A DNA stretch of 64,000 bases from Rhizobiales bacterium NRL2 (GTDB lineage: Bacteria; Pseudomonadota; Alphaproteobacteria; Minwuiales; Minwuiaceae), in contig CP016093.1 in NCBI GenBank assembly GCA_001664005.1, positions 2,873,001-2,937,000 on the forward strand, given 5' to 3'. Of this stretch, positions 32,744-48,544 are shown piece by piece (the stretch's first letter is position 1; every line of letters starts with the position of its first letter). The position numbers and the translations under genes were made by a program. The notes under the pieces were generated by a model that was not told the DNA's origin, ran no database searches, and saw only the letters and a program-made list of their open reading frames with translations.

Positions 32744-34819
32744 TTGAAGGACGACAGCATTCGACCGCCATGGCGCATCGGCGTCGATGTCGGCGGCACG
32801 TTCACGGACATGGCGCTCGTGGACGCCGCGGGCGCGCTGCGCGTCTTCAAGTCGCCCTCGGTGCCGAGCGACCCGGCCGCCGGCGTCATCGGCGTGCTGG
32901 AACACGCCGCCGGGGAACTTGGCGCGCCGCTGGGAGAACTGCTCGCCGGCTGCCGCCTGTTCGTCCACGGCTCCACCATCGCCACCAACACGATCCTGGA
33001 AAGGAAGGGCGCCCGCATCGGCATGATCGTCAGCGACGGGCTGCGCGACGCCCTGGAGATCCGCCGCGGCTTCCGCGCCGACCAGTGGGACCACCGCGCG
33101 CCAAACCCGCCGGTGCTGGCGCCGCGCTTTCTCCGGCGTCCGGTCAAGGCGCGGCTCGACAAGGACGGCCGCGTCGACACGCCCCTGGACGAGGACGATG
33201 TCGGGGCCGCCGCCGAGGTCTTCGCGCGCGAAGGCGTGGAGAGCGTCGCCGTCTGCCTGCACAACGCCTATGCCGACGGCGTCCAGGAGCGGCGGGTCGC
33301 GGAACTGCTCGCCGACCGCTGGAGCGGCGAGCGGATGTCGCTCTCCCACGTGGTCAACCCGGTGGTGGGCGAATACGAACGCGGCTCGACGGTCGCCATG
33401 AATGCCTATGTAGCCCCGAAAGTCGTCGGCTACCTGCAGCGCCTCAACGACCGCCTGCTGGATCTCGGGCTGCCGAACCCGATCCTGCTGGTGCAGTCGA
33501 ACGGCGGCGTCGTATCCGTCCGGGAAGCGGCGGAACGTCCCGTCAATCTGACACTTTCCGGACCCGCGGCCGGCGTGGGCGCGCTGAAGCTCTACCGACA
33601 GCTCACGGGTCTCGATGACCTGGTGGCCATGGAAATCGGCGGCACCAGTTGCGACGTCACCCTGATGGCGGGCGGCGAGGCCCCGGTTTCCGACCAGCTC
33701 GAGATCGACGGCTATCACCTGGCGACGCCCGCAATCGACATTCACACCGTCGGCGCGGGCGGCGGGACGCTGGCCGGCGTCGACACCGGCGGCATGCTCC
33801 GCGTGGGCCCGGAAGGCGCCGGCGCGGACCCCGGACCCGCGGCCTACGGAAAGGGCAACGACCGGCCAACGGCGACCGATGCGCATCTGGCGCTGGGCCG
33901 GCTGCGCCCCGGGCCGATGGGCGGCGGCGCGGTCTCCCTCGACCCCGACCGCGCCCGGCGCGCCATCGAGACCCATGTCGCGAAGCCCCTCGGCCTGTCG
34001 ATCGAGGACGCGGCGATCGGCATCCTTCGCCTGCTGGAGCAGAACCTGCTGCACGCGGTCGAGCGGCTGTCGGTCGAGCGCGGCTACGATCCCAAGGCGT
34101 TCACGCTCGTCGCCGCCGGCGGCGCGGGCCCGATGCACGGCGCGGCAGTGGCCAGGACGCTGGGCTGCCGACGGGTCTTCGCGCCGCAGCAGGCCGGCGC
34201 GTTCTGTGCGCTCGGCATGCTCTGGTCGGACGTTCGTCTGGACTCGCTCAGGGTCATGGACGGCGATCTGGATGCCACGCCGGACGCCGAACTGGAGGCA
34301 GGTTTCGCGCCGCTGCTGGAGGAGGGCCGCGCCGCACTGGCCAGGGAAGGCTTCGAGGGCGCGGCGGCGGATCTCCAGCGCGTGCTCGACCTCCGCTACA
34401 AGGGCCAGCAATGGTCTCTGCGCACCGCCATCGACGGCTTCGACCGCGCTGCGATCCGGCGCGCCTTCGAGGCCGATCACGAACGCCGCTTCGGCCATAT
34501 CCAGCCCGGCGGCACGATCCTGATCACGGCGCTGCGGCTGGTCGCGACGGGCCGCATCGACCGTCAGCCGCCCGCCCCGGCGTCAGGCGCTGCGGACGCC
34601 GTTCCGGCGCCGATCGACCACCGGCGGTGTTTCGTCGACGCCCGCACGAGCTGGCAGGAAGTCCCCGTCTACCGCGCCGAAGACATGACGCCCGGCTCGA
34701 CGATCGAAGGTCCGCTGATCATCGAGGCGCCCACCACCACCATCCTGGCCGGCGACGGCGACCGCGTCAGTGTCGACACCCATGGCCACTACATGATCGA
34801 GATCGGAGAGAACCGATGA
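32744..34819 (+). CDS. hyuA: hydantoinase/5-oxoprolinase A subunit (HyuA type)
   Basis: This 691-residue ATP-dependent cyclic-amide hydrolase subunit begins with the ATP-binding IGVDVGGTFTDMALVDAAG. Other family marks are VHGSTIATNTILERKGA, GPAAGVGAL, EIGGTSCDVTL, VGAGGGTLAGVD and the GPMHGAAVARTLG stretch. No ATG fits: the frame starts with TTG at 32744, six bases after the strong GGGGGAGG. The stop overlaps hyuB as ATGA. Together they may open hydantoins, 5-oxoproline or a related ring; the substrate is not visible. The absence of acetone-carboxylase gamma or N-carbamoyl hydrolase genes nearby leaves the pathway open. Confidence 0.92.
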   Translation: MKDDSIRPPWRIGVDVGGTFTDMALVDAAGALRVFKSPSVPSDPAAGVIGVLEHAAGELGAPLGELLAGCRLFVHGSTIATNTILERKGARIGMIVSDGLRDALEIRRGFRADQWDHRAPNPPVLAPRFLRRPVKARLDKDGRVDTPLDEDDVGAAAEVFAREGVESVAVCLHNAYADGVQERRVAELLADRWSGERMSLSHVVNPVVGEYERGSTVAMNAYVAPKVVGYLQRLNDRLLDLGLPNPILLVQSNGGVVSVREAAERPVNLTLSGPAAGVGALKLYRQLTGLDDLVAMEIGGTSCDVTLMAGGEAPVSDQLEIDGYHLATPAIDIHTVGAGGGTLAGVDTGGMLRVGPEGAGADPGPAAYGKGNDRPTATDAHLALGRLRPGPMGGGAVSLDPDRARRAIETHVAKPLGLSIEDAAIGILRLLEQNLLHAVERLSVERGYDPKAFTLVAAGGAGPMHGAAVARTLGCRRVFAPQQAGAFCALGMLWSDVRLDSLRVMDGDLDATPDAELEAGFAPLLEEGRAALAREGFEGAAADLQRVLDLRYKGQQWSLRTAIDGFDRAAIRRAFEADHERRFGHIQPGGTILITALRLVATGRIDRQPPAPASGAADAVPAPIDHRRCFVDARTSWQEVPVYRAEDMTPGSTIEGPLIIEAPTTTILAGDGDRVSVDTHGHYMIEIGENR

Positions 34820-36543
34820 GCATCGATCCCGTCACGCTCGCGCTGGTGCAGAACCGGCTGGATCACATCTCCCGCCAGATGGGCTTCGTCATGACCCGCA
34901 CGGCGCGCAGCCCGATCTTCAACCAGAGCCACGACTTCTCCTGCTTCATCGCGGACGCCGCCGGCACGCTGATCAGCCAGGCCGACGGGATCCCGATCCA
35001 CACCGGCGGCGGCGGCTTCACCGTGCGGGCGCTGATCGAGGCGTTCGAGGGGCGCATCCGCCCCGATGATGTCTTTCTCTCCAACGACCCCTATGTCGCC
35101 GGCGGCAACCACCTGCCCGACTGGGTGATTTCCCGGCCGGTCTTCGTCGAAGGCGAACTGGCGGCCTGGGCCTGCAATCGGGCCCACCAGTCCGACATCG
35201 GCGGCGGGGCCGCCGGCACCTACAACCCGGAAGCGACGGAGATCTTCCACGAGGGGCTGCGCCTGCCCCCGCTCCGGCTGATCGAGAAGGGCGAGACCCG
35301 CGACGATCTCTGGCAGCTTCTGCTGCTCAACAGCCGCACGCCAGAACTGATGGACGGCGACCTGCGCGCCATGATCGGCTCAACGCGGATCGGTGCGGAG
35401 CGGATCGAGGAACTGCTGCGCGACCTGGGCCGGGCCGAGGGCGCGGGCTATTTCGATGCGCTGCTCGACTATGCCGACATGCGTTTCCGGGAGGCCTGCG
35501 CCGAAATTCCGCCCGGCCGCTACGAGGCCGAGGAGATCACCGACAACGACTGCTTCGAGAAGCGCGACATCCATATCCGCGTCCGCATCGACCGGACGGC
35601 CGACGGGCTGACCGTCGACTTCACCGGCACCGACCCGCAGATGAAGGGGTTCAAGAACTCCTCGATCGCCAACACCTACTCCGCGGTCTACATGGCCCTT
35701 TCCTCCTTTTTCGATCCCGATCTGCCGCGCAACGAAGGCGCCTTCCGCTCGGTGAAGATCGTCGCGCCGCTGGGCACGGTGGTGAACCCGCGCCCGCCGG
35801 CGCCGATGACCATGTGCACGGTCTTCGTCGCGCACGAAATCGTCCACGCCATCTGGAAGGCGCTGGGCGACGCCGTGCCGTCCCGGGCCTGCGCCGGATG
35901 GGGCAAGACCATCCACAACATCACCTCGGGCCGGGCGGCGGGCAGCGCCGAGCCCTTCGTGATGTACAACTGGGCCGCCAACGCCGCCGGCGGCGCGGTC
36001 CGGGGCCGGGACGGATTCAACCAGATCGGCCTGCTGATCGCACTGGGCGGGCTGCACCTGCCCAATGCCGAGACCTACGAACGGATCTATCCGGTGCGCA
36101 TCCTGCAGCAGGAATTCCGCACCGACGGCGGCGGCGCCGGCGAATTCCGTGGCGGCACCGGCGTGGACTACCGCGTCGAGACCCTGACCGAGGCGACCTA
36201 CTCCTTCCGGGGCGAGGGAATCGGCCAGGTCTCCGGTTTCGGCATCAAGGGCGGCGGCGGCGGACTGACCGGCTCGATGACCCTCCATCCTGCCGGGGCT
36301 GAGGATTTCGAGGCGCCGCAATACGGCGTGCGCCACTTCCCGCCGGCCCTGCTGGAAGCCCACTCACCCGGCGGCGGCGGCTATGGCGATCCGCGGACGC
36401 GGTCCGTCGAGGCGGTGCTGCGCGACGTGATGGACGGCGTGGTCAGCCCGGAAGCGGCCGAGCGGGCCTATGGCGTCGCCATCGCACCGGACGGCCGCTC
36501 GGTCGACGCCCGGCGGACCTCCGAACTTCGCGGCGCGGCCTGA
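34816..36543 (+). CDS. hyuB: hydantoinase/5-oxoprolinase B subunit (HyuB type)
   Basis: This 575-residue subunit forms the hydrolase with HyuA. Typical segments are NRLDHISRQMGFVMTRTARS, FNQSHDFSCFI, GDVF-like DDVFLSNDPYVAGGNHLPD, GGTGVDYRVETL and the C-terminal SPGGGGYGDPRTRS loop. The start at 34816 lies within the last codon of hyuA (ATGA) with GGAGAG before it. The stop lies two bases from the convergent small exported protein gene, so there is no room for a separate terminator. Confidence 0.92.
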   Translation: MSIDPVTLALVQNRLDHISRQMGFVMTRTARSPIFNQSHDFSCFIADAAGTLISQADGIPIHTGGGGFTVRALIEAFEGRIRPDDVFLSNDPYVAGGNHLPDWVISRPVFVEGELAAWACNRAHQSDIGGGAAGTYNPEATEIFHEGLRLPPLRLIEKGETRDDLWQLLLLNSRTPELMDGDLRAMIGSTRIGAERIEELLRDLGRAEGAGYFDALLDYADMRFREACAEIPPGRYEAEEITDNDCFEKRDIHIRVRIDRTADGLTVDFTGTDPQMKGFKNSSIANTYSAVYMALSSFFDPDLPRNEGAFRSVKIVAPLGTVVNPRPPAPMTMCTVFVAHEIVHAIWKALGDAVPSRACAGWGKTIHNITSGRAAGSAEPFVMYNWAANAAGGAVRGRDGFNQIGLLIALGGLHLPNAETYERIYPVRILQQEFRTDGGGAGEFRGGTGVDYRVETLTEATYSFRGEGIGQVSGFGIKGGGGGLTGSMTLHPAGAEDFEAPQYGVRHFPPALLEAHSPGGGGYGDPRTRSVEAVLRDVMDGVVSPEAAERAYGVAIAPDGRSVDARRTSELRGAA

Positions 36544-36545
36544 CC

Positions 36546-37016
36546 TCAGTCGTCCTCGAAGATCTGGAACGGCGTGCGCATGCGGACGCCCCAGTACTCG
36601 TAGATCAGGTAGTAGCGCTGGCCGACCGCCAGATCGTTGGATCGCAGCATGATCGAGTTGCCGCCCTTCAGCGTGCCGCCGGCCTCGATCACGGTTTCCA
36701 CGGTCTCGCCCTTGCAGTCCGGTTCGACGCCGTAGAGCACCGGGTCGTTGTTCGGCAGGGCGATGATCCAGTTGTGGACGGCGCAATCCGCCGGCGCGCG
36801 CAGGATCAGATCCTCCGCGCCGGTATTGGTGATGGCGAGATCGACATGCATGCGCGCCGACGCGCCGCCCTGGGGCAGACGGATCCGGCGCTCGACCGAA
36901 ATCTCGCCGGTCAGGAATTCGTCGGTTTCGGCGACCCGGGCCGCCCTGGCGTCTGTCATGGCGGCCGTGGCAACGGCGAGACCGAGCAGGCAGGGTGCAA
37001 GAAGGCGACGGATCAT
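36546..37016 (-). CDS. small exported protein with an Ig-like (BsuPI-like) fold
   Basis: This 156-residue protein has a signal peptide of about 25 residues (MIRRLLAPCLLGLAVATA... cut near ARA-ARV). The mature part is beta-rich: VDLAITNTGAEDLILRAPA, NWIIALPNNDPVLYG, GGTLKGGNSIMLRSNDL and a YYLIYEYWGVRMRTPF end. This pattern is like the BsuPI proteinase-inhibitor fold, but similarity by eye is weak. Two cysteines (ADCAVHNW, PDCKGET) may form a disulfide. GGAG precedes the ATG at the right distance. Function unknown; convergence with hyuB carries no meaning by itself. Confidence 0.65.
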   Translation of the reverse strand: MIRRLLAPCLLGLAVATAAMTDARAARVAETDEFLTGEISVERRIRLPQGGASARMHVDLAITNTGAEDLILRAPADCAVHNWIIALPNNDPVLYGVEPDCKGETVETVIEAGGTLKGGNSIMLRSNDLAVGQRYYLIYEYWGVRMRTPFQIFEDD

Positions 37017-37170
37017 GACGTGCTCCACGGGTGTGTCGGTTTCGTCCTGAAGTGTGGGGAGGCGGCGCGTTGCCGGCAAGTGACCGCCGCAACCATTGCC
37101 GCAGTATTGCGGCCCGAAGCCCCAGACGGCACTCTCGCCGCGCATCGGTTCCGACATGGAGGGGGAGCGC

Positions 37171-38151
37171 GTGACCCGACTATTGCTGCTCGCGGGCAAG
37201 CAGAGCATGAAGAAGGCCAATTTTCTGGCCGGACACCTTGAGACCGACTGGCGCATCGAAGCCTGCGATCCGGCCGCGGACCGGGCGGCTTTCGAGCGGC
37301 TGGCGCCGGAGGCAGAGGCCATCGTGGGCGGCTACATCGCCCGGCCGTGGCCGGCGACGCCCAGACTGAAGCTCTACCAGATACCCTTCACCGGCCATGA
37401 TTTCCTGGAACCGGAGGTTCTCCCCGCGGGCTGCCGCGTCTGCAACACCTACGAACACGAAACCTCGATCGCGGAGTACATCCTGCTGGCCATGCTGGAA
37501 TGGGAAATCGGCCTGTCGAAGACCGCCGCCCGGTTCCGCGAGAGAAGCTGGGACGGCAAGGGCCCCGCCGAGGGACCGGTGCATGGCGAGGTGCGCGGCA
37601 AGACCGTTGGCATCGTGGGTTACGGCCATATCGGGCGCGAGGTCGCGATCCGCGCCCGCGCTTTCGGCATGAACGTGATCGGCATCGGCCGGCGCAAGCA
37701 GCCGACGCCGGACCTTCTCGACTGGTACGGCACGACCATGGAGATCGACCGGCTGATGGCGGAGGCGGACTACGTGGTCGTCGCCTGCCCGCTGAACGAA
37801 GCCACGCGGGGCCTGCTCGACGCCGACCGCCTTGGCGCGATGAAGCCGACAGGAGTTGTCATCAATGTCGGACGGGGCGCCATCATCGACGAGGACGCGA
37901 TCTACGACGCCCTGAAGAACGGCCGTATCGGCGGCGCGGTCATCGACGTGTGGTGGCGCTACCCCGGGCGGGACGAGCCGAATCCCCGGCCCTCGCGCCA
38001 TCCCTTGCACGAACTCGACAACGTCATCATGACGCCGCACAACTCCGGCTGGACGCAGGAGCAGATCGACCGCCGCTGGGTCTTCGTCGCCTCGAACCTG
38101 GACAGGATCGCCCGCGGCGAGACGCCGGAGAACGTGGTCATGACGATCTGA
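37171..38151 (+). CDS. D-2-hydroxyacid dehydrogenase (NAD-dependent)
   Basis: This 326-residue enzyme reduces 2-oxo acids to D-2-hydroxy acids, or the reverse. The NAD-binding loop is VGIVGYGHIGREVAIRARAF; the catalytic set is NVGRGAIIDEDA (Arg), the Glu region of the GGAVIDVWWR segment and TPHNSGW (His). The GTG at 37171 has GGAGG eight bases before it, better than the ATG at 37156, which has no site. The N-terminal domain is the short, variable substrate part. Candidate substrates include glyoxylate, hydroxypyruvate or phosphonopyruvate; no neighbour narrows this. Confidence 0.87.
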   Translation: MTRLLLLAGKQSMKKANFLAGHLETDWRIEACDPAADRAAFERLAPEAEAIVGGYIARPWPATPRLKLYQIPFTGHDFLEPEVLPAGCRVCNTYEHETSIAEYILLAMLEWEIGLSKTAARFRERSWDGKGPAEGPVHGEVRGKTVGIVGYGHIGREVAIRARAFGMNVIGIGRRKQPTPDLLDWYGTTMEIDRLMAEADYVVVACPLNEATRGLLDADRLGAMKPTGVVINVGRGAIIDEDAIYDALKNGRIGGAVIDVWWRYPGRDEPNPRPSRHPLHELDNVIMTPHNSGWTQEQIDRRWVFVASNLDRIARGETPENVVMTI

Positions 38152-38222
38152 ACGGGCGCACGGCTCCCGGCCCGGCGCGGTACGGCCACCGCGCCGGCGC
38201 ATCGTCGGAACCGGAATGGCGG

Positions 38223-38242
38223 GGGGCGGCCGAAGCCGCCCC
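38223..38242. terminator. strong hairpin after the FKBP isomerase gene
   Basis: GGGGCGGC and GCCGCCCC form a perfect 8-base stem around loop CGAA, 5 bases past the stop of the FKBP gene on the minus strand. No T-tract follows, so termination would rely on the stem alone or be Rho-aided. Confidence 0.5.
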
Positions 38243-38247
38243 GCCCC

Positions 38248-38679
38248 TCACTTGACGATTTCGACGACCTTCACGTCGAAAGTCAGATCCTGGCCGGCCA
38301 GCGGATGGTTGGCGTCCAGGGTGACGGTGCTGTCGTCGAAATCGGCGACGGTCAGCGCGATCACCTGGCCCTGACGGTCCGTGGCCTGGAGCTGCGCGCC
38401 GACCTGCAGGTCGATCTCGTCGGGCACCTGTTCCCGGTCCACCTTGTGCAGCAGGTTCGGATCGTGCGGGCCATAGCCTTCCTCGGGCGGAACGGTGACG
38501 GTCCTGGAGTCGCCTTCCTCCATGCCCACGACGGCATTCTCGAAGCCGGAAATCACCTGGCCGGATCCCACCGTGAGCTCGATCGGCTCGCGGTCGAGGG
38601 AACTGTCGAACTTGCGACCGTCCTCCAGAGATCCTTCATAGTGCACTCGGACGGTATCGCCGGTCTTTACCTCAGCCAT
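38248..38679 (-). CDS. FKBP-type peptidyl-prolyl isomerase (SlyD/FkpB-like)
   Basis: This 143-residue cytoplasmic protein is a prolyl isomerase and chaperone. It starts AEVKTGDTVRVHYEGSLEDG, followed by the FDSSLDREPIELTVGSGQVI active-site strand and an insert-in-flap chaperone domain with VPPEEGYGPHDPNLLHKVDR. NHPLAGQDLTFDV closes the fold, as in SlyD. The metal-binding His/Cys tail of E. coli SlyD is missing, so it is closer to the short form. AAGGAAAGGG precedes the start. Single gene. Confidence 0.92.
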   Translation of the reverse strand: MAEVKTGDTVRVHYEGSLEDGRKFDSSLDREPIELTVGSGQVISGFENAVVGMEEGDSRTVTVPPEEGYGPHDPNLLHKVDREQVPDEIDLQVGAQLQATDRQGQVIALTVADFDDSTVTLDANHPLAGQDLTFDVKVVEIVK

Positions 38680-38861
38680 GTGCGATGCCCTTTCCTTGGT
38701 AGTTGCGCCGGCTGGGAAGCCCGGTCCCGCTATCGCCGGAAAAAGCCAACGGCACATCTCGTTCCTGCGGGATTGAGACGTGCCGTTCAGCCAGTTCAGA
38801 GATTTCGCGGGATGGTCGGCGGGGACCGCCGGCATCGTCCCCTGGTCGTGTCAGTCGACGA

Positions 38862-39071
38862 TCAGTCGATCACCTTCAGATCCTGTGCGGACATTCGGTT
38901 GTCACGGCCCTTCGCGAGTTCGTACTCAAGCTTCTGACCGTCACGAAGACCATCGAGGCCCGCGCGCTCGGCAGCGGAGATGTGCACGAACACATCCTGC
39001 GACCCGTCTTCCGGAGCAATGAAGCCATAGCCCTTGACGGTGTTGAACCATTTCACAGTTCCGATCGGCAT
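38862..39071 (-). CDS. cold-shock protein (CspA family)
   Basis: This 69-residue single-domain nucleic-acid chaperone has the RNA-binding motifs KGYGFI (RNP1) and VFVHIS (RNP2) in the usual order. It melts RNA structure at low temperature or during stationary phase. The start MPIGTVKWF is chosen over an upstream in-frame codon because CspA proteins start here. A good promoter lies about 140 bases upstream, giving a long leader that could act as an RNA thermosensor. Confidence 0.95.
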   Translation of the reverse strand: MPIGTVKWFNTVKGYGFIAPEDGSQDVFVHISAAERAGLDGLRDGQKLEYELAKGRDNRMSAQDLKVID

Positions 39072-39212
39072 AGTCAGTTCACCCAGTCTCATGGATCACC
39101 GGAAAACAGCTCCGGCGTTTGGTCAGTTCTTTCAGGAACATCGACGAGTAGTCTGGCTCATGCATGTGGCAGGTCCATTACCCGGCGAGAGGTTCGTGCC
39201 AAAACCTTCTAA

Positions 39213-39240
39213 AACCTAGGCGACGCAAGGCTGTTGTCAA
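39213..39240 (-). promoter_or_regulatory. candidate cspA-type promoter with long leader
   Basis: On the minus strand a perfect -35 TTGACA (39240-39235) is followed after 16 bases by TAGGTT (39218-39213). Transcription from about 39206 would give a leader of about 135 bases before the csp ATG at 39071, similar to the long leaders of cold-inducible csp genes. The 317-base space 39072-39388 otherwise holds the promoter of the plus-strand fusion gene and no gene. Confidence 0.5.
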
Positions 39241-39288
39241 TGCCGGACTACGTCGGACGCATGAATCCGCAGCGTCTGTCACAACCGC

Positions 39289-39316
39289 TTGCAAGCCGGA
39301 AAAAACGGCGTATATG
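39289..39316 (+). promoter_or_regulatory. candidate promoter of the methyltransferase/ATP-grasp gene
   Basis: TTGCAA (39289-39294) and TATATG (39311-39316) with a 16-base spacer look like a sigma-70 promoter, though neither hexamer is perfect. It would give a leader of about 66 bases to the GTG start at 39389. Confidence 0.4.
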
Positions 39317-39388
39317 GCGCCATCAAGCTGCACGGATCCACAGACGCTCACGGCAGCGAAACCGTTTGAGCGCAAGGAGAGACCGTCC

Positions 39389-41356
39389 GTGTCCAGCTCC
39401 CCTACCCGCCGTGGCGTCACGGCGAAATCCCCTTCGCAGCCTCAGGGCCGCGGCGCGCGCGCGCGGACCTTTCTCGGCCCGATCGCGGACCTGGAAAGCC
39501 ATCTCCCCGCCGAGTGGTGGCGCGACCTTTTCGACGACATCTATCTGAAGACCGACGGCGACGTGGTGGAGAACGCAGCCGCCACGACCGCCGAGATCGA
39601 CCTGCTGCTCTCGGCCACCGGCGTCGGCGTCTCGGACCGCGTGCTCGATCTGTGCTGCGGCCAGGGCCGCCACGCCATCGAGCTGGCCCGGCGCGGCTTC
39701 CGCCATGTCACGGGCGTCGACCGCTCCCATTACCTGATCCGTCTGGCGCGCCAGCGCGCCGAGGCAGCCGCGCTGCCGATCCAGTTTCGGGAGGGCGATG
39801 CGCGCCAGCTTCGTGTGGCCGAGATGAGCCAGGACCTGGTGATGCTGATGGGCAATTCCTTCGGCTACTTCGCCAGCGAGGATGACGACCTGAAAGTGCT
39901 GAAGCGCGCGCTGCGCGCCCTGGCACCCGGCGGGCGCGTCTATCTGGACCTCACGGACGGCGACTGGATTCGGGAGCACTTCGAGAAGCGCTCCTGGGAA
40001 TGGATCGACCAGAACCATTTCGTCTGCCGCGAGCGCGGCCTTTCCGCCGACGGCAGCCGGCTGATCAGCCGCGAGGTGGTGGTCCACGACGAACGCGGCG
40101 TGCTTGCCGACCAGTTCTACGCCGAACGGCTCTACAACCGCGCCGGCATCGCCGCGCTGCTGGAAAGGGCGGGTTTCGGCGACGTCCGCTTTCACGGCCG
40201 CCTGTCGGGCAGTTCGGAGCGCAATCAGGACCTCGGCATGATGGCCCACCGGGAGATCGTCACGGCGATCGCGCCGCGGCGGCAACCGACCCGGCGCAAG
40301 CGCGACCGGGCGCTGGAGGTCGCGGTCCTGCTCGGCGATCCCGCCCTGCCGGATTCGGTGAAGTTGAACGGGCAGTTCAATGCCGAGGACTTCGCAACCG
40401 TCGACCGGCTGAAGAATGCGCTGGCGGAGCTGGAGGGCTACCGCTTCAGCTATCTGGACAACCACGCCGCCTTCGACACCGCGCTGGAGGCCGCCCATTG
40501 CGACCTGGTGCTGAACCTGTGCGACGAGGGCTGGAACAACGACGCCTTCCAGGAACTGCACGTCCCGGCGCGCCTCGATCTGCTGAAGCTGCCCTATACG
40601 GGAGCGGGTCCGGCCTGTCTCGCCGCCTGCTACGACAAGGCGCTGGTGCGCGCGGTCGCGGCCTCTCTCGATATCCCGGTGCCGGCGGAGACCTATCTCA
40701 GGCCGGGGGATCAGGCCGCCAATCTGCCCGGCATCTTCCCGGCGATCCTGAAACCCAATTTCGGCGACAGTTCCATCGGCATCACCAAGGACGCCATCGT
40801 CCACGACACCACGGGCCTGATCCAGCGCCTCGACACGCTGAAGCGGGAGTTCGGCGAACGTCCCATTCTCATCCAGGAGTTCCTGACGGGAGCCGAATAC
40901 ACCGTCGGCCTGATCGGCAACCCGGGCGGGGAGTTCCATGTCCTGCCCGTGCTGGAAGTCGACTACGGGCGCCTCGACCAGGGTCTGCCGCGGATTCTGG
41001 GCTATGAATCGAAGTACGAGCCCGACTCGCCCTACTGGAACGACATCCGCTATGTGGGCGCGCGGCTTTCCGCCGACGACCAGCGTGCGCTGGTGAGCCA
41101 TGCCAGCCGGCTGTTCGACCGGCTGGGCTGCCGCGACTATGCCCGCTTCGACTTCCGCGCCGATGCGGCCGGCCAGATCCGGCTGCTGGAGGTGAATCCC
41201 AATCCGGGCTGGTGCTGGGACGGAAAGATGAACCTCGCCGCGGGCCTGGAGGGGCTGCGCTATTCGGAGTTCCTCGCCCGCATCCTGGAGGCGGCCTGCC
41301 AGCGGCTGGGGATCGAAGCCGTCGAGCCCCGGCAGACCAGGGCGCGCCGGGCCTGA
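39389..41356 (+). CDS. fusion of a SAM methyltransferase and a D-Ala-D-Ala-ligase-like ATP-grasp enzyme
   Basis: This 655-residue protein joins two enzymes. Residues about 30-295 are a class I SAM methyltransferase with motif I VLDLCCGQGRH (85-95) and VTGVDRS (107-113). Residues about 305-640 resemble D-alanine-D-alanine ligase: an N-terminal domain with DLVLNLCDEGWNNDAFQELH (372-391) and LPYTGAG, the ATP-grasp strand AILKPNFGDSSIGI (452-465), LIQEFLTGAEYTVGLIG (494-510) and the metal-binding RFDFRADAAGQ...LLEVNPNPG end (586-607). It would methylate one substrate and ligate an amino acid or acid in one polypeptide. GTG at 39389 has AAGGAGAG seven bases before it and a good length fit. It stands alone next to ileS. 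True Ddl seems unlikely since it lies outside the cell-wall cluster; a modified amino acid or small peptide product is an inference. Confidence 0.85.
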   Translation: MSSSPTRRGVTAKSPSQPQGRGARARTFLGPIADLESHLPAEWWRDLFDDIYLKTDGDVVENAAATTAEIDLLLSATGVGVSDRVLDLCCGQGRHAIELARRGFRHVTGVDRSHYLIRLARQRAEAAALPIQFREGDARQLRVAEMSQDLVMLMGNSFGYFASEDDDLKVLKRALRALAPGGRVYLDLTDGDWIREHFEKRSWEWIDQNHFVCRERGLSADGSRLISREVVVHDERGVLADQFYAERLYNRAGIAALLERAGFGDVRFHGRLSGSSERNQDLGMMAHREIVTAIAPRRQPTRRKRDRALEVAVLLGDPALPDSVKLNGQFNAEDFATVDRLKNALAELEGYRFSYLDNHAAFDTALEAAHCDLVLNLCDEGWNNDAFQELHVPARLDLLKLPYTGAGPACLAACYDKALVRAVAASLDIPVPAETYLRPGDQAANLPGIFPAILKPNFGDSSIGITKDAIVHDTTGLIQRLDTLKREFGERPILIQEFLTGAEYTVGLIGNPGGEFHVLPVLEVDYGRLDQGLPRILGYESKYEPDSPYWNDIRYVGARLSADDQRALVSHASRLFDRLGCRDYARFDFRADAAGQIRLLEVNPNPGWCWDGKMNLAAGLEGLRYSEFLARILEAACQRLGIEAVEPRQTRARRA

Positions 41357-41363
41357 AGCCGGT

Positions 41364-44168
41364 TCAGGCGGCGGCGGCGTCGTGGACGGCCACGGCGTCG
41401 CTGCAGCGGTTGCACAGCGCACCCTCCTCGGGCACTTCCTCCAGCACCATCCAGCAGCGCCCGCACTTGGCACCGGTGGCCCGGCGCGGGCTCACGGCCA
41501 CGCCGTCGACGTCTTCCAGGCGGAAGGCGTCGGCCGGCGCGGGTTCGGTGGAAACCGCCGCGCCCGAGGTGATGAACAGGCCCGCCATGTCCAGACCCTC
41601 CAGCTTCGACGCGTCGTCCGCGGACAGGTAGACGACCGGCGAGGCCTGCAGGCTGGCACCGATGCGCTTCTCGCGCCGCTCCACCTCCAGCGCGCCGGTG
41701 ACGACCCGGCGGATCTCGAAGATGCGGTTCCACTTCTCCGCCAGCGTGTCGTCCAGCCAGCCGGACGGCGCCTCGGGGAACAGCTTCAGGTGAACGCTGT
41801 CGTTCTCGTCCGGATAGCGCGACTGCCAGGCTTCCTCGGCGGTGAAGGCGAGGATCGGCGCGAACCAGGTCACCAGGCAGTGATAGAGCCGGTCGAGCAC
41901 CGTGCGCGTCGCGCGGCGGCGGATCGAATCCGGACGGTCGCAATAGAGCACGTCCTTGCGGATGTCGAAGTAGAACGACGACAGCTCGATGGCGCAGAAA
42001 TTGTGCAGCGCGACGAAGACATCGTGGAAGTCGTAGACCGCCAGCGCCTCCCGCACCGTCCGGTCCATCACCGCCAGGCGATGCAGCAGGTAGCGGTCCA
42101 GTTCCGGCATCTCCGCCGGGTCCAGACGCTCGCTCTCCTCGAAGTCATGCAGATTGCCCAGCAGGAAGCGCAGCGTGTTGCGCAGCCGGCGGTAGGAATC
42201 GGCGGTCGCCTTCAGGATGCCGGGGCCGAACCGCAGATCCTCGGTATAGTCGGCGGCGGCCACCCAGAGCCGCAGGATATCGGCGCCGTACTGGCCGAAC
42301 ACGTCCTTCGGCCCCAGCGCGTTGCCGGACGACTTCGACATCTTCTCGGCCTTCTCGTCGAGGATGAAGCCGTGGGTCAGCACCGCGTCATAGGGCGCGC
42401 GGCCGCGCGTGCCGCAGCTTTCCAGCAGCGACGAATGGAACCAGCCGCGATGCTGGTCCGTGCCCTCCAGATAAAGGTCGGCGGGCCATTTCAGGTCGTC
42501 GCGCATCTCCAGGCAGAAGGCGTGCGTGGTGCCTGAATCGAACCAGACGTCCAGGATGTCGCTGGCCTTCTCGTAGTCGTCGGCGCTGTAGTCGTCGCCT
42601 AGGAAGAAGGCGGCGTCATTGCCGAACCAGGCGTCGCAGCCTTCGGCCTGGATCGCCTCGAGGATCCTTTCGTTGACCCTTTCGTCGCGCAGCGGCTCGC
42701 CGGTGCGCTTGTCGACGAAGACGGTGATCGGCACGCCCCAGACGCGCTGGCGCGAGAGCAGCCAGTCAGGACGGTTCTCGATCATCCCGTTCAGCCGGCG
42801 CTGGCCGGATTTCGGATAGAACGCCGTTTCCGAGATCGCCTTCAGCGCCTTCTCCCGGATGCCGGTCTTCTCCATGGAGATGAACCACTGCGGCGCGTTG
42901 CGGAAGATCAGCGGCGCCTTGGAGCGCCAGCTGTGCGGATAGGAGTGGGTGATCTTGCCGTGCGCCAGCAGGCCGCCATGCCCGGTCAGCGTCTCGATCA
43001 TCGGACCGTCGACCTTGAAGACATGCATTCCGGCGAAGTGCGGCACATGCGGATAGTAGAGACCATCTTCGGCAACGGTATCAGGCACTTCGACGCCGTT
43101 TTCGACACCCAGATCGAAGTCCTCCGCGCCGTGGCCCGGTGCGATGTGGACGAACCCCGTGCCCTGGTCGGTGGTGACGTAGTCCGCCGGCAGCAGCCGG
43201 TCCTCGTAGGTGTAGCCCAGATCGCTCAGCGGATGGCGGCAGACGGTGCCGGCCGGCTTCGTGACCTCTGCCACCTTCGTCCAGCTCTCGATGCCGGCGG
43301 CCTCGCGCACGCTCTCCGCCAGCGCGTCGGCCAGCGCCAGCTTCTCGCCCGCCTTCGCCAGCGAGCCTTCCGCCACGGCCTCCACCTGGTAGACGCCGTA
43401 ATCGATCTCCTCGCCATAGGCGAGCGCGCGGTTGCCCGGGATCGTCCAGGGCGTGGTGGTCCAGATCACGATCGAGGCGCCTTCCAGCGCCGGATCCTCG
43501 GTCCGGATGACGGGAAAGCGCACCCAGATCGTCGTCGAGGTGTGGTCGTGGTACTCGATCTCCGCCTCGGCCAAGCTGGTCTTCTCGACCACTGACCACA
43601 TCACCGCCTTGGAGCCCTTGTAGAGACTGCCGTCCATCAGGAACTTGAGCAGTTCGGCCACGGTGACGGCCTCGGACTTGTAGTCCATCGTCAGATAGGG
43701 CCGCTCCCAGTCGCCGAAGACGCCGAGGCGCTTGAAGCCCTCGCGCTGCACGTCGATCCAGTGATCGGCGAACTCGCGGCATTCGCGGCGGAACTCGTTG
43801 ACCGGCACCTCGTCCTTGTTGCGGCCGGCCTTGCGGTACTTCTCCTCGATCTTCCACTCGATGGGCAGGCCGTGACAGTCCCAGCCGGGGACGTAGTTGG
43901 CGTCATAGCCCATCATCTGCCGTGAGCGGTTGATGACGTCCTTCAGCACCTTATTGAGGACGTGGCCCATGTGGATGTCGCCATTGGCGTAGGGCGGGCC
44001 GTCGTGGAGGATGAACTTCTCGCGGCCCTTCGAGCTCTCGCGCAGCTTCTTCCAGATCTCCATCCGCTCCCAGCGCTCGAGCATCTCCGGCTCCTTCTGG
44101 GGCAGGCCGGCACGCATGGGGAAGTCGGTCTTCGGCAGGAAGACGGTGTCTTTGTAGTCTCGGGTCAT
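41364..44168 (-). CDS. ileS: isoleucyl-tRNA synthetase
   Basis: This 934-residue class I synthetase attaches isoleucine to tRNA-Ile and edits valine. The HIGH-equivalent region is YANGDIHMGHVLNK, the KMSKS loop is EKMSKSSGNAL, and the C-terminal zinc domain has GAKCGRCWMVLEE and ALCNRCSD. The editing domain lies between about 200 and 400. The length matches bacterial IleS. It converges on the fusion gene with only seven bases between stops. The next gene on the strand upstream is cueR, 150 bases away. Confidence 0.98.
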   Translation of the reverse strand: MTRDYKDTVFLPKTDFPMRAGLPQKEPEMLERWERMEIWKKLRESSKGREKFILHDGPPYANGDIHMGHVLNKVLKDVINRSRQMMGYDANYVPGWDCHGLPIEWKIEEKYRKAGRNKDEVPVNEFRRECREFADHWIDVQREGFKRLGVFGDWERPYLTMDYKSEAVTVAELLKFLMDGSLYKGSKAVMWSVVEKTSLAEAEIEYHDHTSTTIWVRFPVIRTEDPALEGASIVIWTTTPWTIPGNRALAYGEEIDYGVYQVEAVAEGSLAKAGEKLALADALAESVREAAGIESWTKVAEVTKPAGTVCRHPLSDLGYTYEDRLLPADYVTTDQGTGFVHIAPGHGAEDFDLGVENGVEVPDTVAEDGLYYPHVPHFAGMHVFKVDGPMIETLTGHGGLLAHGKITHSYPHSWRSKAPLIFRNAPQWFISMEKTGIREKALKAISETAFYPKSGQRRLNGMIENRPDWLLSRQRVWGVPITVFVDKRTGEPLRDERVNERILEAIQAEGCDAWFGNDAAFFLGDDYSADDYEKASDILDVWFDSGTTHAFCLEMRDDLKWPADLYLEGTDQHRGWFHSSLLESCGTRGRAPYDAVLTHGFILDEKAEKMSKSSGNALGPKDVFGQYGADILRLWVAAADYTEDLRFGPGILKATADSYRRLRNTLRFLLGNLHDFEESERLDPAEMPELDRYLLHRLAVMDRTVREALAVYDFHDVFVALHNFCAIELSSFYFDIRKDVLYCDRPDSIRRRATRTVLDRLYHCLVTWFAPILAFTAEEAWQSRYPDENDSVHLKLFPEAPSGWLDDTLAEKWNRIFEIRRVVTGALEVERREKRIGASLQASPVVYLSADDASKLEGLDMAGLFITSGAAVSTEPAPADAFRLEDVDGVAVSPRRATGAKCGRCWMVLEEVPEEGALCNRCSDAVAVHDAAAA

Positions 44169-44318
44169 GATCGGAGCCCCTGGCTCAATATCGGCAATAC
44201 GGATCGGAAAAGGCGGCGGTATCCCGGCCCCGGCGTCACAGGACCGGGCAGGTAATTCGATCGATCGTCCGTATCTGGCGGCTGCCGGTGCGCATGGGCC
44301 GCGCTTATAGCGCCGGGC

Positions 44319-44723
44319 TCAGGCCTTGTCGAGAAGGCCCGCCGACAGCCCGTCCAGGATCGGGCAGTCGGGCCGGTGATCGCCCGAGCAGCAGTCGGCG
44401 AGATGCTTCAGTTCGTCGTGCAGCTTCTGCAGTTCCGCCATCTTGGCCTCGATCTCGGCGATGCGCTCCAGCGCGATGGCCTTGACGTCGGCGCTGGCGC
44501 GGCTGCGGTCCTCGTAGAGCGCCAGCAGCTCCCGGCACTCCTCGATGGAGAAGCCGAAGCTGCGTGCGCGCTGGACGAAGCGGAGCTTGCTCACTTCCGG
44601 CGCGCCATAGTCTCGGTAGCCGTTGTCGCGCCGCGCCGACGGGCCCACGAGCCCGATATCGGCGTAATAGCGCACCGTCTTGGTGGGAAGCCCGGCCGCC
44701 CGGGCCGCGTCGCCTATGTTCAT
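44319..44723 (-). CDS. cueR: CueR-type copper(I)-sensing MerR family regulator
   Basis: This 134-residue regulator senses monovalent copper (and likely silver or gold) and twists promoter DNA to activate transcription. It has the MerR helix-turn-helix start NIGDAARAAGLPTKTVRYYA and the long dimer helix. Two metal-binding cysteines, Cys112 and Cys120 (CCSGDHRPDCPILD), fall at the same positions as in E. coli CueR, and Ser77 is the residue that marks +1-ion sensors. The start at 44723 is chosen by homology. A fitting target promoter lies upstream of the cytochrome c gene of the copper operon (53162-53192), 8 kb away. Confidence 0.93.
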   Translation of the reverse strand: MNIGDAARAAGLPTKTVRYYADIGLVGPSARRDNGYRDYGAPEVSKLRFVQRARSFGFSIEECRELLALYEDRSRASADVKAIALERIAEIEAKMAELQKLHDELKHLADCCSGDHRPDCPILDGLSAGLLDKA

Positions 44724-44802
44724 CGCCTGCTGTCCTCGATGTCGCATGTCCCGCACTGGGATTTACATTCGCGCCGATTGTGCCTACTTCGCACCATCAT
44801 GA

Positions 44803-46026
<1,224 letters not shown>

Positions 46027-46107
46027 ACCGGCAGCGCCATCGCGACCGAACGATCCGCTACCCGTCGTTTCGATCGAATGCCACACGAAGCGATTGAATG
46101 ACTTGGC

Positions 46108-46172
46108 GTCCTGGGGCTTGACCCCAGGACCCAGTTCGACGTTTTGCTGGCCCCTTGGATCAAGTCCAAGGG
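46108..46172. repeat. REP-like palindrome pair, copy 2
   Basis: Between asd and the copper ATPase gene. First hairpin 46108-46130: GTCCTGGGG, loop CTTGA, CCCCAGGAC, a perfect 9-base stem. Second hairpin 46152-46172: CCCTTGGA, loop TCAAG, TCCAAGGG, a perfect 8-base stem. The second loop is the exact reverse complement of the first, so the two units face opposite ways. Both genes end toward this gap, so it may also act as a bidirectional terminator. Confidence 0.8.
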
Positions 46173-46210
46173 CGACAAGTCTGGACGGTTCGATCGAACA
46201 TTGGGTCACT

Positions 46211-48544
46211 CTAGAGCTTCAGCGCCCGCAGCCTGAGGGCGTTGGAGATCACCGAGACCGACGACAGGCTCATCGCCGCCGCCGCGATCATCGGCGACAG
46301 CAGCGTGCCGGTGACGGGATAGAGGATGCCTGCCGCGATCGGCACGCCGGCGGCGTTGTAGATGAAGGCGAAGAACAGGTTCTGGCGGATATTGGCGATG
46401 GTCGCCCGGGCGAGCCGATGCGCCCGCACCACGCCGGACAGGTCGCCCTTCACCAGCGTGAAGCCGGCGCTCTCCACGGCGACGTCCGCGCCCGTGCCCA
46501 TGGCGATCCCGACATCGGCCGCCGCCAGCGCCGGGGCGTCGTTGACGCCGTCGCCGGCCATGGCGACCCGCCGCCCCCGGCCATGCAGTTCGTCGACCAG
46601 CGCTTTCTTGTCTTCCGGCAGCACGTCGGCGCGCACCTCGTCGATACCGAGTTCGTCGGCCACGGCTTTGGCCGTCCGCGCGTTGTCGCCGGTCGCCATG
46701 ATGATTTCCAGGCCGGCTTCCCTGAGTTGCCGGATGGCGTCCTTTGCATTCGCCTTGATCGGATCCGCCACGGCGACAAGGCCGGCGAGCCCGCCATCAG
46801 CGGCGACGTACATCACGGTTCGGCCCGCATCGCGCAGGTCGTCGCCCGTCGCCTGCCAGGCGCCGACGTCGATACCGGCGTCGTCCATCATGGCGCGGTT
46901 GCCCATCAGGATGGCCCGGCCGTCCACCCGGCCCTTCACGCCCTTGCCGGTGACGGCTTCGAAGTCCGACGTCGCGCCGGCCGCCACGCCGCGTGCTTCG
47001 GCGCCCTTCAGGACCGCTTCGGCCAGCGGATGCTCGGAACCCTTCTCCAGCGCGGCGGCCAGACCCAGGACGTCCGCTTCCGACCAGCCGTCCGCGGCGA
47101 CCACGTCGGTCAGTTCCGGCCGGCCCTCGGTCAGCGTACCCGTCTTGTCGACCACCAGCGTGTCGACGCGGGCGAAGCGTTCCAGCGCCTCGGCATCGCG
47201 GACCAGCACGCCCGCCTGGGCGCCGCGGCCGGTGGCCGTCATGATCGACATGGGCGTCGCCAGGCCCAGCGCACATGGACAGGCGATGATGAGGACGGAG
47301 ACGGCTGCCACCAGGGCGTAGACCATGGCCGGCGAAGGACCGAACACCGACCAGACGATGAATGCAACAATCGCCACCAGAACCACGGCGGGCACGAACC
47401 ATGACGCAACCCTGTCGGCGAGGCCCTGGATCGGCGCCCGCGAGCGCTGGGCCTGGGCGACCATGTCGACAATGCGCGACAGCATGGTGTCGGCGCCGAC
47501 CCGCTCGGCCCGGATAACCAGTCCGCCGTTGCGGTTCAGCGTGCCGCCGGTGACGGCGTCGCCCTCGGTTTTCTCCACCGGCACCGGCTCGCCGGAGATC
47601 ATGCTTTCGTCAACCGCCGAGCGCCCTTCCAGCACGACGCCGTCGACGGGCACGCTTTCGCCCGGACGGACGCGCAGCCGGTCGCCTTCCAGGATGTTCT
47701 CCAGCGGAACCTCGCGCTCGGTCCCGTTCTCGTTGATCCGCCGCGCGGTCTTCGGCGCCAGGTCGAGCAGCGCACGGATCGCGCTGCCGGTCCGCTCCCG
47801 GGCCCGCAGTTCCAGCACCTGACCCAGGAAGACCAGCGCGATGATCACGGCCGCAGCCTCGAAGTAGACAGGGACGGTGCCGTCGGCGCGGACAAAGGAG
47901 GGCGGGAAGATCCCCGGGGCGACGGCCGCCACGACGCTGTAGGCGTAGGCCGCGCCGGTGCCGATGGCGATCAGCGTCCACATGTTGGGACTGCGGTTGA
48001 CGATCGAGTTCCAGCCCCGCTTGAAGAAGGGCAGCGCCGCCCAGAGCACGACCGGCGTCGCCAGCGCCAGCTCGAGCCAGATCGCAGGACGCTCGCCCAG
48101 CCAGTGGCGGAAGGGTAGCCCCAACATGTGGCTCATCGCGAGAAAGAAGATCGGCACGGCAAGCGCCGCGCTGACGATGAAGCGCCTGGTGAAATCCACC
48201 AGTTCCGGGTTGGGACCGTCAGCGGGTACCCCCATGGGCTCCAGCGCCATGCCGCATTTGGGGCAATCGCCGGGATGATCCTGCACGATCTCCGGGTGCA
48301 TCGGACAGGTGTACTGCGTGCCTTTCGGCGCGGCCTTCGGGCGGCGCTTGTGTGCGCCGGTCAGGTAGAACTCGGGGTCCGCCTCGAAGCGGTCGTGACA
48401 GCGCCGCCCACAGAAGTGATAGGTCTCGCCCTCATGGACGAGGCTGGGCTTGCCGGCGGCTGTGTCGACCGACATACCGCAGACCGGATCGGTCACGACG
48501 TCACCCGATGCGGTGGCGTGGACATGATGTGCGTGGCTGCTCAT
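46211..48544 (-). CDS. copA: copper-transporting P1B-type ATPase with YHS and zinc-ribbon-like N-terminal domains
   Basis: This 777-residue inner-membrane pump exports Cu(I) from the cytoplasm. It has the ion-path motif [15 protein letters not shown], phosphorylation site [10 protein letters not shown], and the [18 protein letters not shown] hinge. Instead of the usual HMA domain it starts with a His-rich tail ([11 protein letters not shown]), a YHS domain ([20 protein letters not shown], then CGRRC) and a [14 protein letters not shown] metal-ribbon, as in SilP-like pumps. It is the last gene of the copper operon, 34 bases after the DUF411 gene. Ag(I) may also be a substrate. Confidence 0.93.

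Follow-up and report, generated by a model that had tools for sequence, protein, structure and literature searches.

The window analysed here, a 64,000-nucleotide stretch of the genome of Rhizobiales bacterium NRL2, encodes a protein in which a class I SAM methyltransferase (MT) is fused to an ATP-grasp ligase with the fold of D-Ala-D-Ala ligase (Ddl). The preferred explanation, which we hold with middling confidence, is that this protein is a self-contained bifunctional enzyme whose Ddl-type ligase and SAM methyltransferase would together make an N-methylated dipeptide-like amide. Ddl-type ATP-grasp ligases and class I N-methyltransferases are both known kinds of enzyme; the widespread fusion of the two appears to be new. 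Conservation was counted over 90 fusion rows, which hold 87 distinct sequences, some of the genomes being the same assemblies as the named loci. The features, in window coordinates, are as follows.

39374..39379 (+): ribosome-binding site AAGGAG, 9 nt before the GTG at 39389, read directly
39389..41356 (+): gene of the fusion protein, 655 aa, GTG start and TGA stop; the same in-frame fusion occurs in the best 80 of at least 554 relatives
39473..40279 (+): class I SAM methyltransferase half, residues 29-297, from Pfam, the AlphaFold2 model (mean pLDDT 88.9) and fold matches
39641..39673 (+): SAM motif I VLDLCCGQGRH, residues 85-95; D87, G91 and G93 kept in 87 of 90 fusion rows, the other 3 being gapped
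39989..40129 (+): putative substrate-cap segment R201-R247 (RSWEWID...CRER...SREV...DQFYAERL), from residue conservation, its role being suggested by the MT fold
40280..40312 (+): variable linker, residues 298-308, of low conservation, with pLDDT below 50 at 302-304
40313..41353 (+): ATP-grasp ligase half with the Ddl fold, residues 309-655, from Pfam; best Z 29.9 to the Ddl family
40751..40753 (+): K455, equivalent of DdlB K144 by alignment, in 90 of 90 fusion rows
41012..41017 (+): K542-Y543, equivalent of the DdlB omega-loop K215-Y216 by alignment; Trp at 543 in 88 of 90 rows
41144..41152 (+): R586-F-D588, with the equivalents of DdlB R255 and D257, by alignment and conservation
41189..41227 (+): EVNPNPGWCWDGK, residues 601-613, with the metal ligands E601 and N603 and the changed acceptor loop, by alignment and conservation

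The open frame spans 39164-41356 on the forward strand, and similarity of the fusion protein to its relatives starts near residue 29, in agreement with the GTG start at 39389. The preliminary description, made from the DNA letters, had called this a real gene with a GTG start and a good ribosome-binding site, and both the AAGGAG element and the conservation among relatives bear this out. No terminator was predicted near the gene in a scan of 38600-41700, and all four matches listed in a search for RNA elements in 34000-46500 score below their gathering scores. The gene is flanked by a cold-shock gene and a class I tRNA synthetase gene, the latter presumably isoleucyl. The ten window neighbours scanned with Pfam include, besides the cold-shock protein and the synthetase, an FKBP isomerase, a MerR regulator, a semialdehyde dehydrogenase and a metal P-type ATPase; none is a van or mur gene and there is no obvious partner among them. 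A separate ddl above its NCBIfam cut-off sits in murB-ddl-ftsQ of the same genome, which also has a glutathione synthetase (GshB). The placement of the gene outside any cell-wall or antibiotic cluster, as described earlier, is thus upheld.

Both domains assigned in the preliminary description, a methyltransferase and a D-Ala-D-Ala-ligase-like ATP-grasp enzyme, were recovered by Pfam, as Methyltransf_25 at residues 85-182 (E 4e-21) and Dala_Dala_lig_C at residues 449-634 (E 3e-19). Among the NCBIfam matches listed (25 models), none reaches its cut-off for the fusion protein, the best being the Ddl models PRK01372 (111 vs. 243 bits) and TIGR01205 (97 vs. 246 bits). The AlphaFold2 model of the whole protein has a mean pLDDT of 85.3 and a pTM of 0.59; in this model both halves are well defined, and their placement relative to each other is not.

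The ligase half matches Ddl-family structures with Z up to 29.9 over 309 residues. DdlB of the alignment is the E. coli enzyme, whose K144 lies in the ATP site and whose S281-L282 belong to the loop that holds the D-Ala2 carboxylate. By alignment, DdlB K144, E187, K215, R255 and D257 correspond to K455, E503, K542, R586 and D588, and the alignment pairs E270 and N272 with E601 and N603. All seven of these fusion residues, and K613 as well, are present in 90 of 90 fusion rows. DdlB S150 corresponds to S461, which is kept in 88 of 90 rows, and DdlB Y216, a residue marked by entry 1iow (Y216F), corresponds to Y543 in the window protein and to Trp in 88 of 90 rows. In place of the acceptor pair S281-L282 the fusion has G612-K613, near the invariant W608 and W610. 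The ATP and metal residues are retained and the acceptor loop is altered, suggesting that the ATP chemistry is kept and that the acceptor site is different. Thus, the ligase half shares with Ddl the fold over its whole length, the equivalents of K144, E187, R255, D257, E270 and N272 and the omega-loop lysine, whereas it stays far below both curated cut-offs, has a different acceptor loop, lies outside any cell-wall gene context, and carries an N-lobe NLCDEG, W608 and W610, and a fused methyltransferase. With a separate ddl in murB-ddl-ftsQ and a different acceptor loop, the fusion is not the cell-wall Ddl.

In the methyltransferase half, the SAM-site positions 87, 91, 93, 111, 137, 156 and 157 are kept in 86 to 90 of the 90 fusion rows, the deviations being gaps (in at most 3 rows), three Glu for Asp at 137 and one Ala for Ser at 157. 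Loss of ATP- or SAM-binding residues in relatives, which would have spoken against the earlier description, was therefore looked for and found in a single fused protein outside the 90 rows, the L035 paralogue discussed below; both halves are complete as originally described, from motif I (85-95) to the ATP-grasp end EVNPNPGWCWDGK (601-613). Eleven cap residues (W203, W205, D207, R214, E215, R216, R228, E229, D241, E246 and R247) are present in 90 of 90 rows and, together with the retained SAM site, look as expected for a narrow, polar substrate site.

By sequence, the solved protein nearest to the METHYLTRANSFERASE half is 9RI2, which is NmbA, the bacillithiol methyltransferase of Chlorobaculum tepidum (E 5.6e-25, the next solved methyltransferase being at 3.9e-12). 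The NmbA profile match (E 1.1e-30) covers positions 26-259, the cap included, and residues 13-243 of the 266-residue chain, whereas the other solved methyltransferases among the matches listed mostly cover the SAM core only, with the exception of 9rfr (52-254). NmbA is 29% identical to the MT half and ranks 24th by fold (Z 22.6). The top two fold matches, 3d2l and 1wzn, are methyltransferases without known function; TylM1, YunM, CgnL, CypM and DesVI come next, and CcbJ and GSMT/GNMT lower. TylM1, DesVI, CypM, YunM, CcbJ, GSMT and GNMT are known or titled as N-methyltransferases. However, the C-methyltransferases PsmD, SeMT and SgMT (Z about 23) are interspersed and rank above NmbA, so that N-methylation is the majority reading. 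Fold and sequence thus favour an amine over an acid as the methylation target. The relevant parts of PMC12719100 and PMC6282198 describe NmbA as N-methylating the cysteine amine of bacillithiol. A portion of PMC12719100 also reports that AlphaFold misplaced the cap strands of NmbA, which makes the cap detail of the present model untrustworthy.

The gene had been described as standing alone, which holds for its surroundings and fails for its distribution: the fusion is widespread, and not peculiar to the window's genome. Among 9 genomes of the same order, the full fusion was found in 2, the window's own and one congener at 99%. Across 385 Alphaproteobacteria genomes, 12 match over both halves (the window's own included; one lacks the N-terminus), and another 6 matches are ligases at 39-51% identity that no MT match accompanies, one of these being an extra gene of a genome that also carries the fusion. 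In one genome, part of an MT lies close to the end of a contig. A set of 398 genomes of the phylum added one unfused ligase at the same threshold. A scan of named genomes, with 18 aligned ligase halves as the query, gave at least 554 confirmed relatives, the best 80 of which were kept, so that weaker or unfused relatives are under-represented. All 80 of these best loci carry the in-frame fusion, at 58-75% identity and in seven named phyla (53 Pseudomonadota, 16 Planctomycetota, 4 Hydrogenedentota, 2 Sumerlaeota, one each of Omnitrophota, Gemmatimonadota and Chloroflexota, and 2 without phylum assignment), a recurrence that argues against a chance joining. Most carriers are metagenome bins, and isolated odd phylum assignments may therefore be contamination; isolates carrying the fusion are Hyphomicrobium zavarzinii ATCC 27496, Woodsholea maritima DSM 17123, Filomicrobium insigne, Methylohalomonas lacus HMT 1 and Euryhalocaulis caribicus JL2009.

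A quick-method tree was built from 54 rows, comprising 7 free-standing ligases, the L035 paralogue, the window protein and every second other fusion. The phyla are intermixed among the fusions, which suggests transfer between lineages, with good support for few branches of the tree (9 of 50 inner ones starred, 20 drawn open). None of 72,556 plasmid records held 80% of the protein in one place; 475 had partial matches below 60% identity, 401 of these from Enterococcus. Viral contigs gave one pattern match and no relative of the fusion protein. ATP-grasp amidoligases are reportedly the subject of a 2009 study by Iyer et al. PMC2922099 describes operons that encode an amino-acid methylase and, separately, operons that encode ATP-grasp ligases; its sections on these operons do not mention an MT-ligase fusion. 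Likewise, in literature that covers few subscription journals and includes sections of PMC8939145, no description of the fusion was found.

The surroundings of the fusion gene in relatives were compared over the same best 80 of at least 554 loci. With a simple gene caller, a same-strand gene lies within 60 nt upstream in 1 of the 75 loci with a called upstream gene, and within 60 nt downstream in 18 of 72; neighbours vary, and none is universal. The fusion gene thus mostly begins its own transcription unit, without a fixed partner. The promoter that the preliminary description had given to the gene is supported by this comparison only, as no sigma-70-like site was found between 38600 and 41700 (shuffled sequence gives 0.3). 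An exception, outside the 75-locus count, is the L035 paralogue, which an S9 peptidase gene precedes by 19 nt. In Hyphomicrobiaceae the fusion lies among guaB-, MAPEG-, rsmB-, TspO- and guaA-like genes (so named from their sequences as read), and in the f30 group a methylmalonyl-CoA mutase gene comes after it; a function drawn from these neighbours was set aside, their recurrence not being seen beyond a few lineages. In one Rhodospirillales lineage (L040/L099, together with the near-identical L095 and L101) the gene after the fusion encodes a CitMHS transporter, and such a gene is also found close to the L035 paralogue and to two free-standing ligases.

One neighbour recurs between distant groups, an AstE_AspA_cat deacylase gene. 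It adjoins the fusion in three genomes, a Phycisphaerae bin (L086, with a called 60-codon frame between the two), a Pirellulales bin (L111) and the gammaproteobacterium Methylohalomonas lacus (L074, the two genes being convergent), and the three deacylases are 56-58% alike. A search with the L111 protein covered 36 fusion genomes, 26 of them from outside Pseudomonadota and the other 10 selected by hand. Ten of the 36 hold the deacylase with at least 50% identity, in one case as a fragment where a contig ends; an eleventh hit is a relative with 36% identity. In the six other genomes whose surroundings were read, no fusion was seen beside the deacylase. If gene position were random and 4 places among 4500 genes counted as adjacent, 3 adjacent cases in 10 would have a probability near 1e-7, a figure uncorrected for joint transfer of the pair or for the many families from which this one was picked. 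The nearest named model is DoeB, an N-acetyl-diaminobutyrate deacetylase, at 63 vs. a cut-off of 403 bits. Enzymes of the AstE/AspA type cleave amides of amino acids, which is consistent with an amide product of the fusion. The L074 protein as query (E 1e-30) gave 0 of 385 genomes of the window's class, in a search that had no positive control of its own; the deacylase thus appears to lie outside the system in the window's genome, and with 10 of 36 selected fusion genomes and 0 of 385 class genomes it was rejected as an obligate partner.

In the preferred explanation, the ligase half would use ATP to phosphorylate one amino acid, or an acid resembling one, on its carboxylate, and would couple the activated acid to the amine of a second partner to give a dipeptide-like amide. 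The MT half would use SAM to N-methylate an amine, on one of the partners or on the product, and the fusion would let one half pass its product to the other. Where present, the adjoining AstE/AspA-type deacylase would hydrolyse the amide again. The 74 of 75 loci without a close upstream gene and the lack of a universal neighbour suggest that one gene may be the whole pathway, and since the gene is mostly solitary, the substrates are probably common metabolites. The earlier suggestion of a small-molecule ligase with a methyltransferase remains plausible, and the modified-dipeptide signal offered with it stands as a conjecture.

The least unlikely of the alternatives, though still unlikely, is that a protein or peptide is modified, the ligase attaching an amino acid to the end or a side chain of a protein in the manner of RimK, with methylation of that amine by the MT. 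Close fold matches of the MT half include YunM and CypM, the latter an N-terminal peptide methyltransferase by its title, and the top NCBIfam model for this half is daptide_MTase, yet at 59 vs. a cut-off of 175 bits. However, by both sequence and fold the ligase half is of the Ddl type, a family that joins small molecules, and no small neighbour gene recurs across lineages in the best 80 of at least 554 loci, where genes of 50 codons or more were called. In a graspetide or other RiPP-modifying ATP-grasp system a precursor peptide gene would lie beside the ligase; on this point, too, the 80 loci show no small gene of that length range recurring between lineages.

We give somewhat less credence to a pathway in which the ligase alone is catalytic and the MT domain serves as a SAM sensor or scaffold. 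Free-standing ligases do occur (39-51% identity), and the L035 paralogue (G061, L035 8601-10493), although still fused, has lost SAM-site residues (C89W, Q92P, H95R, N156G, S157A, F158L, G159A and Y160I, with DLGMM gone) yet retains the 11 cap residues checked. However, over 58 fusion rows the MT half is conserved like the ligase half (mean 0.73 vs. 0.74), with its SAM-site residues retained. 

A comparison within the ligase half counts towards the preferred explanation. Seven ligases count as free-standing, that is, no MT match precedes the ligase; one of them, L049, is partial and divergent, with a long branch and an unsure place in the tree. Compared with the 90 fusion rows, these seven differ at several positions, including E380, S461 and N615 (Thr, Gly and Ala, respectively, in six sequences each), G607 (Ala in five), G459 (Ala, Ser or Thr) and W543, where none is aromatic. 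Positions 380, 461, 543 and 607 are off the fusion type in 7 of 7 free-standing ligases and in the SAM-decayed L035 paralogue, which has the free-standing type at 380, 459, 461, 543 and 607 and the fusion type at 534, 609, 610 and 615. Such a pattern, seen in this single case, would be expected if the ligase pocket were tuned to a methylated compound. However, the paralogue lies near the base of the fusions in the tree, and an inherited older pocket explains the pattern equally well.

That the MT makes a carboxyl methyl ester is improbable. Such a blocking group would steer the ligation and be removed later by a hydrolase, as in cystargolide assembly, and cryptic methyl esters are known in an ATP-grasp ligase pathway, according to the portion of PMC11427300 that treats it. 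An amidase gene lies upstream in L034, an alpha/beta hydrolase gene downstream in L055 and the S9 peptidase gene beside the L035 paralogue; however, nearby hydrolases vary between loci, and the MT half resembles N-methyltransferases, by sequence NmbA above all.

A little further down still, we regard as quite doubtful a methylated low-molecular-weight thiol, for which the ligase would join cysteine to an amino acid and the NmbA-like half would N-methylate. The nearest solved MT by sequence acts on the cysteine amine of bacillithiol (PMC12719100, in its relevant part), and Planctomycetes appear in a passage of PMC6282198 as having no such thiol documented or predicted. Among the 29 other fusion genomes, 16 have neither BshC nor GshB over the cut-off. 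However, 10 of the 29 have BshC (two of them Planctomycetota) and 3 have GshB over the cut-off; GshB-like proteins at 193-197 bits (cut-off 299) occur in 4, three of these without BshC, so that only 13 lack BshC, GshB and GshB-like proteins. Most of the 29 are metagenome bins and possibly incomplete. Within the window's class, GshB exceeds the cut-off in 12 of 13 fusion genomes, and also in 15 of 15 other genomes of the same search. The known thiol genes coexist with the fusion in many carriers, suggesting that it does not replace known thiols; replacement of glutathione or bacillithiol is unsupported by the GshB and BshC model searches. Any N-methylated cysteine dipeptide thiol made by this one gene, an equally doubtful product, would stand beside glutathione in Alphaproteobacteria and perhaps be a main thiol in the Planctomycetota and candidate phyla in which the searches gave no known thiol pathway; if real, this low-molecular-weight thiol would be new and distinct from glutathione, bacillithiol and mycothiol.

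A cell-wall or Van-type ligase that makes a D-Ala-D-X terminus, with an MT added, is very improbable: VanA and Ddl are the best solved relatives of the ligase half, but the genome's ddl over the NCBIfam cut-off lies in murB-ddl-ftsQ, the fusion reaches 111 of 243 bits, the D-Ala2 loop is changed and the ten window neighbours include no van or mur gene.

An N-methylated dipeptide-like amide remains the preferred product. A fusion that keeps about 60% identity between Alphaproteobacteria and Planctomycetota, Hydrogenedentota, Sumerlaeota and Chloroflexota, and that mostly lacks fixed neighbours, should make an overlooked metabolite of general use; the likeness of such proteins to D-Ala-D-Ala ligase or to a generic methyltransferase may be why it was overlooked. 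The chemical logic is shared with carnosine synthase, also an ATP-grasp enzyme, and carnosine N-methyltransferase. In this route to anserine, two amino acids are ligated and a nitrogen is methylated; however, the two enzymes are separate animal proteins, of families other than those of the fusion. TylM1/DesVI, CypM/YunM and GSMT/GNMT, which act on a sugar-amine, a peptide or glycine, share the MT-half fold (Z about 21-24) at 17-21% identity and have no fused ligase. NmbA is likewise a class I MT with SAM motif I and a cap, aligned over most of its length, but it is a stand-alone enzyme whose substrate comes from the Bsh enzymes, whereas the fusion MT carries its own ligase, and BshC is absent in 19 of 29 fusion genomes (a search that the window's genome stood outside). 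The identity of 29% to CtNmbA is below the 35% or more of the similarity network in the relevant part of PMC12719100; under the looser BLAST limits given there (above 25% identity, E 1e-20) the MT half passes, and it departs from the demand for similar length. Finally, CysG/BelI, as described in part of PMC11427300, also combine methylation and ATP-grasp ligation within one pathway, that of beta-lactone peptides, but with carboxyl O-methylation, a dedicated gene cluster and, in that part of the source, no such fusion.

At locus L035 of a relative, a paralogue of the fusion has retained the fused arrangement and its cap residues with a decayed SAM site, and its gene is flanked by an S9 prolyl oligopeptidase gene and by the gene of a 320-residue protein, which was also located at three other loci:

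L035:8601-10493, fusion paralogue, SAM site decayed, cap residues intact
L035:10519-11484, gene of the 320-residue protein
L044:1120-2097, gene of the 320-residue protein
L046:10015-10968, gene of the 320-residue protein
L048:4252-5202, gene of the 320-residue protein

The L035 member of this protein has no match in Pfam, NCBIfam or PDB sequences, and ATP-grasp-like motifs are visible in it by eye. The protein is present in 19 of 372 genomes of the Alphaproteobacteria, and is carried by five of the seven genomes that have either the decayed paralogue or a free-standing ligase (a relative of the ligase half with no methyltransferase match before it). Fisher's test gives p 4e-6 for this, a value that pools two draws and takes as negative two genomes whose inclusion in the draws is uncertain. 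Nearby genes code for CitMHS transporters and for peptidases of the S9 or S15 family. A peptide pathway with two ligases and a dedicated peptidase is a candidate reading of these loci.

Beside the true fusion, a CitMHS-family transporter gene (L099:11129-12358) follows after 36 nt, the family assignment having been made on the copy at L040, which, with L095 and L101, belongs to the same lineage as L099. In a genome labelled Rickettsiales, the end of the fusion gene and a 2OG-Fe(II) oxygenase gene (L100:11031-11666) overlap, and this oxygenase might oxidise the fusion product.

Within the window itself, these features were noted:

32810-36543, hydantoinase/oxoprolinase A and B pair
37156-38151, 2-hydroxyacid dehydrogenase
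38902-39137, minus strand, where the cold-shock gene 38862-39056 lies: weak cspA thermoregulator match (24.5 of 78 bits, E 0.005)

On rhizobial plasmids (NZ_CP017104.1, NC_000914.2 and others), ATP-grasp proteins with about 30% identity to the ligase half recur. Three genes lying 6 kb from a fusion (L039:16443-18872) resemble a RimB-RimK-AstE set; their ligase gave a hit with the GshB model, and the third protein is 28% like the AstE_AspA_cat deacylases that adjoin the fusion elsewhere. They look like a further instance of an ATP-grasp ligase accompanied by an AstE-type protein, and a similar pair occurs in contig 132 of genome G756 (L172).
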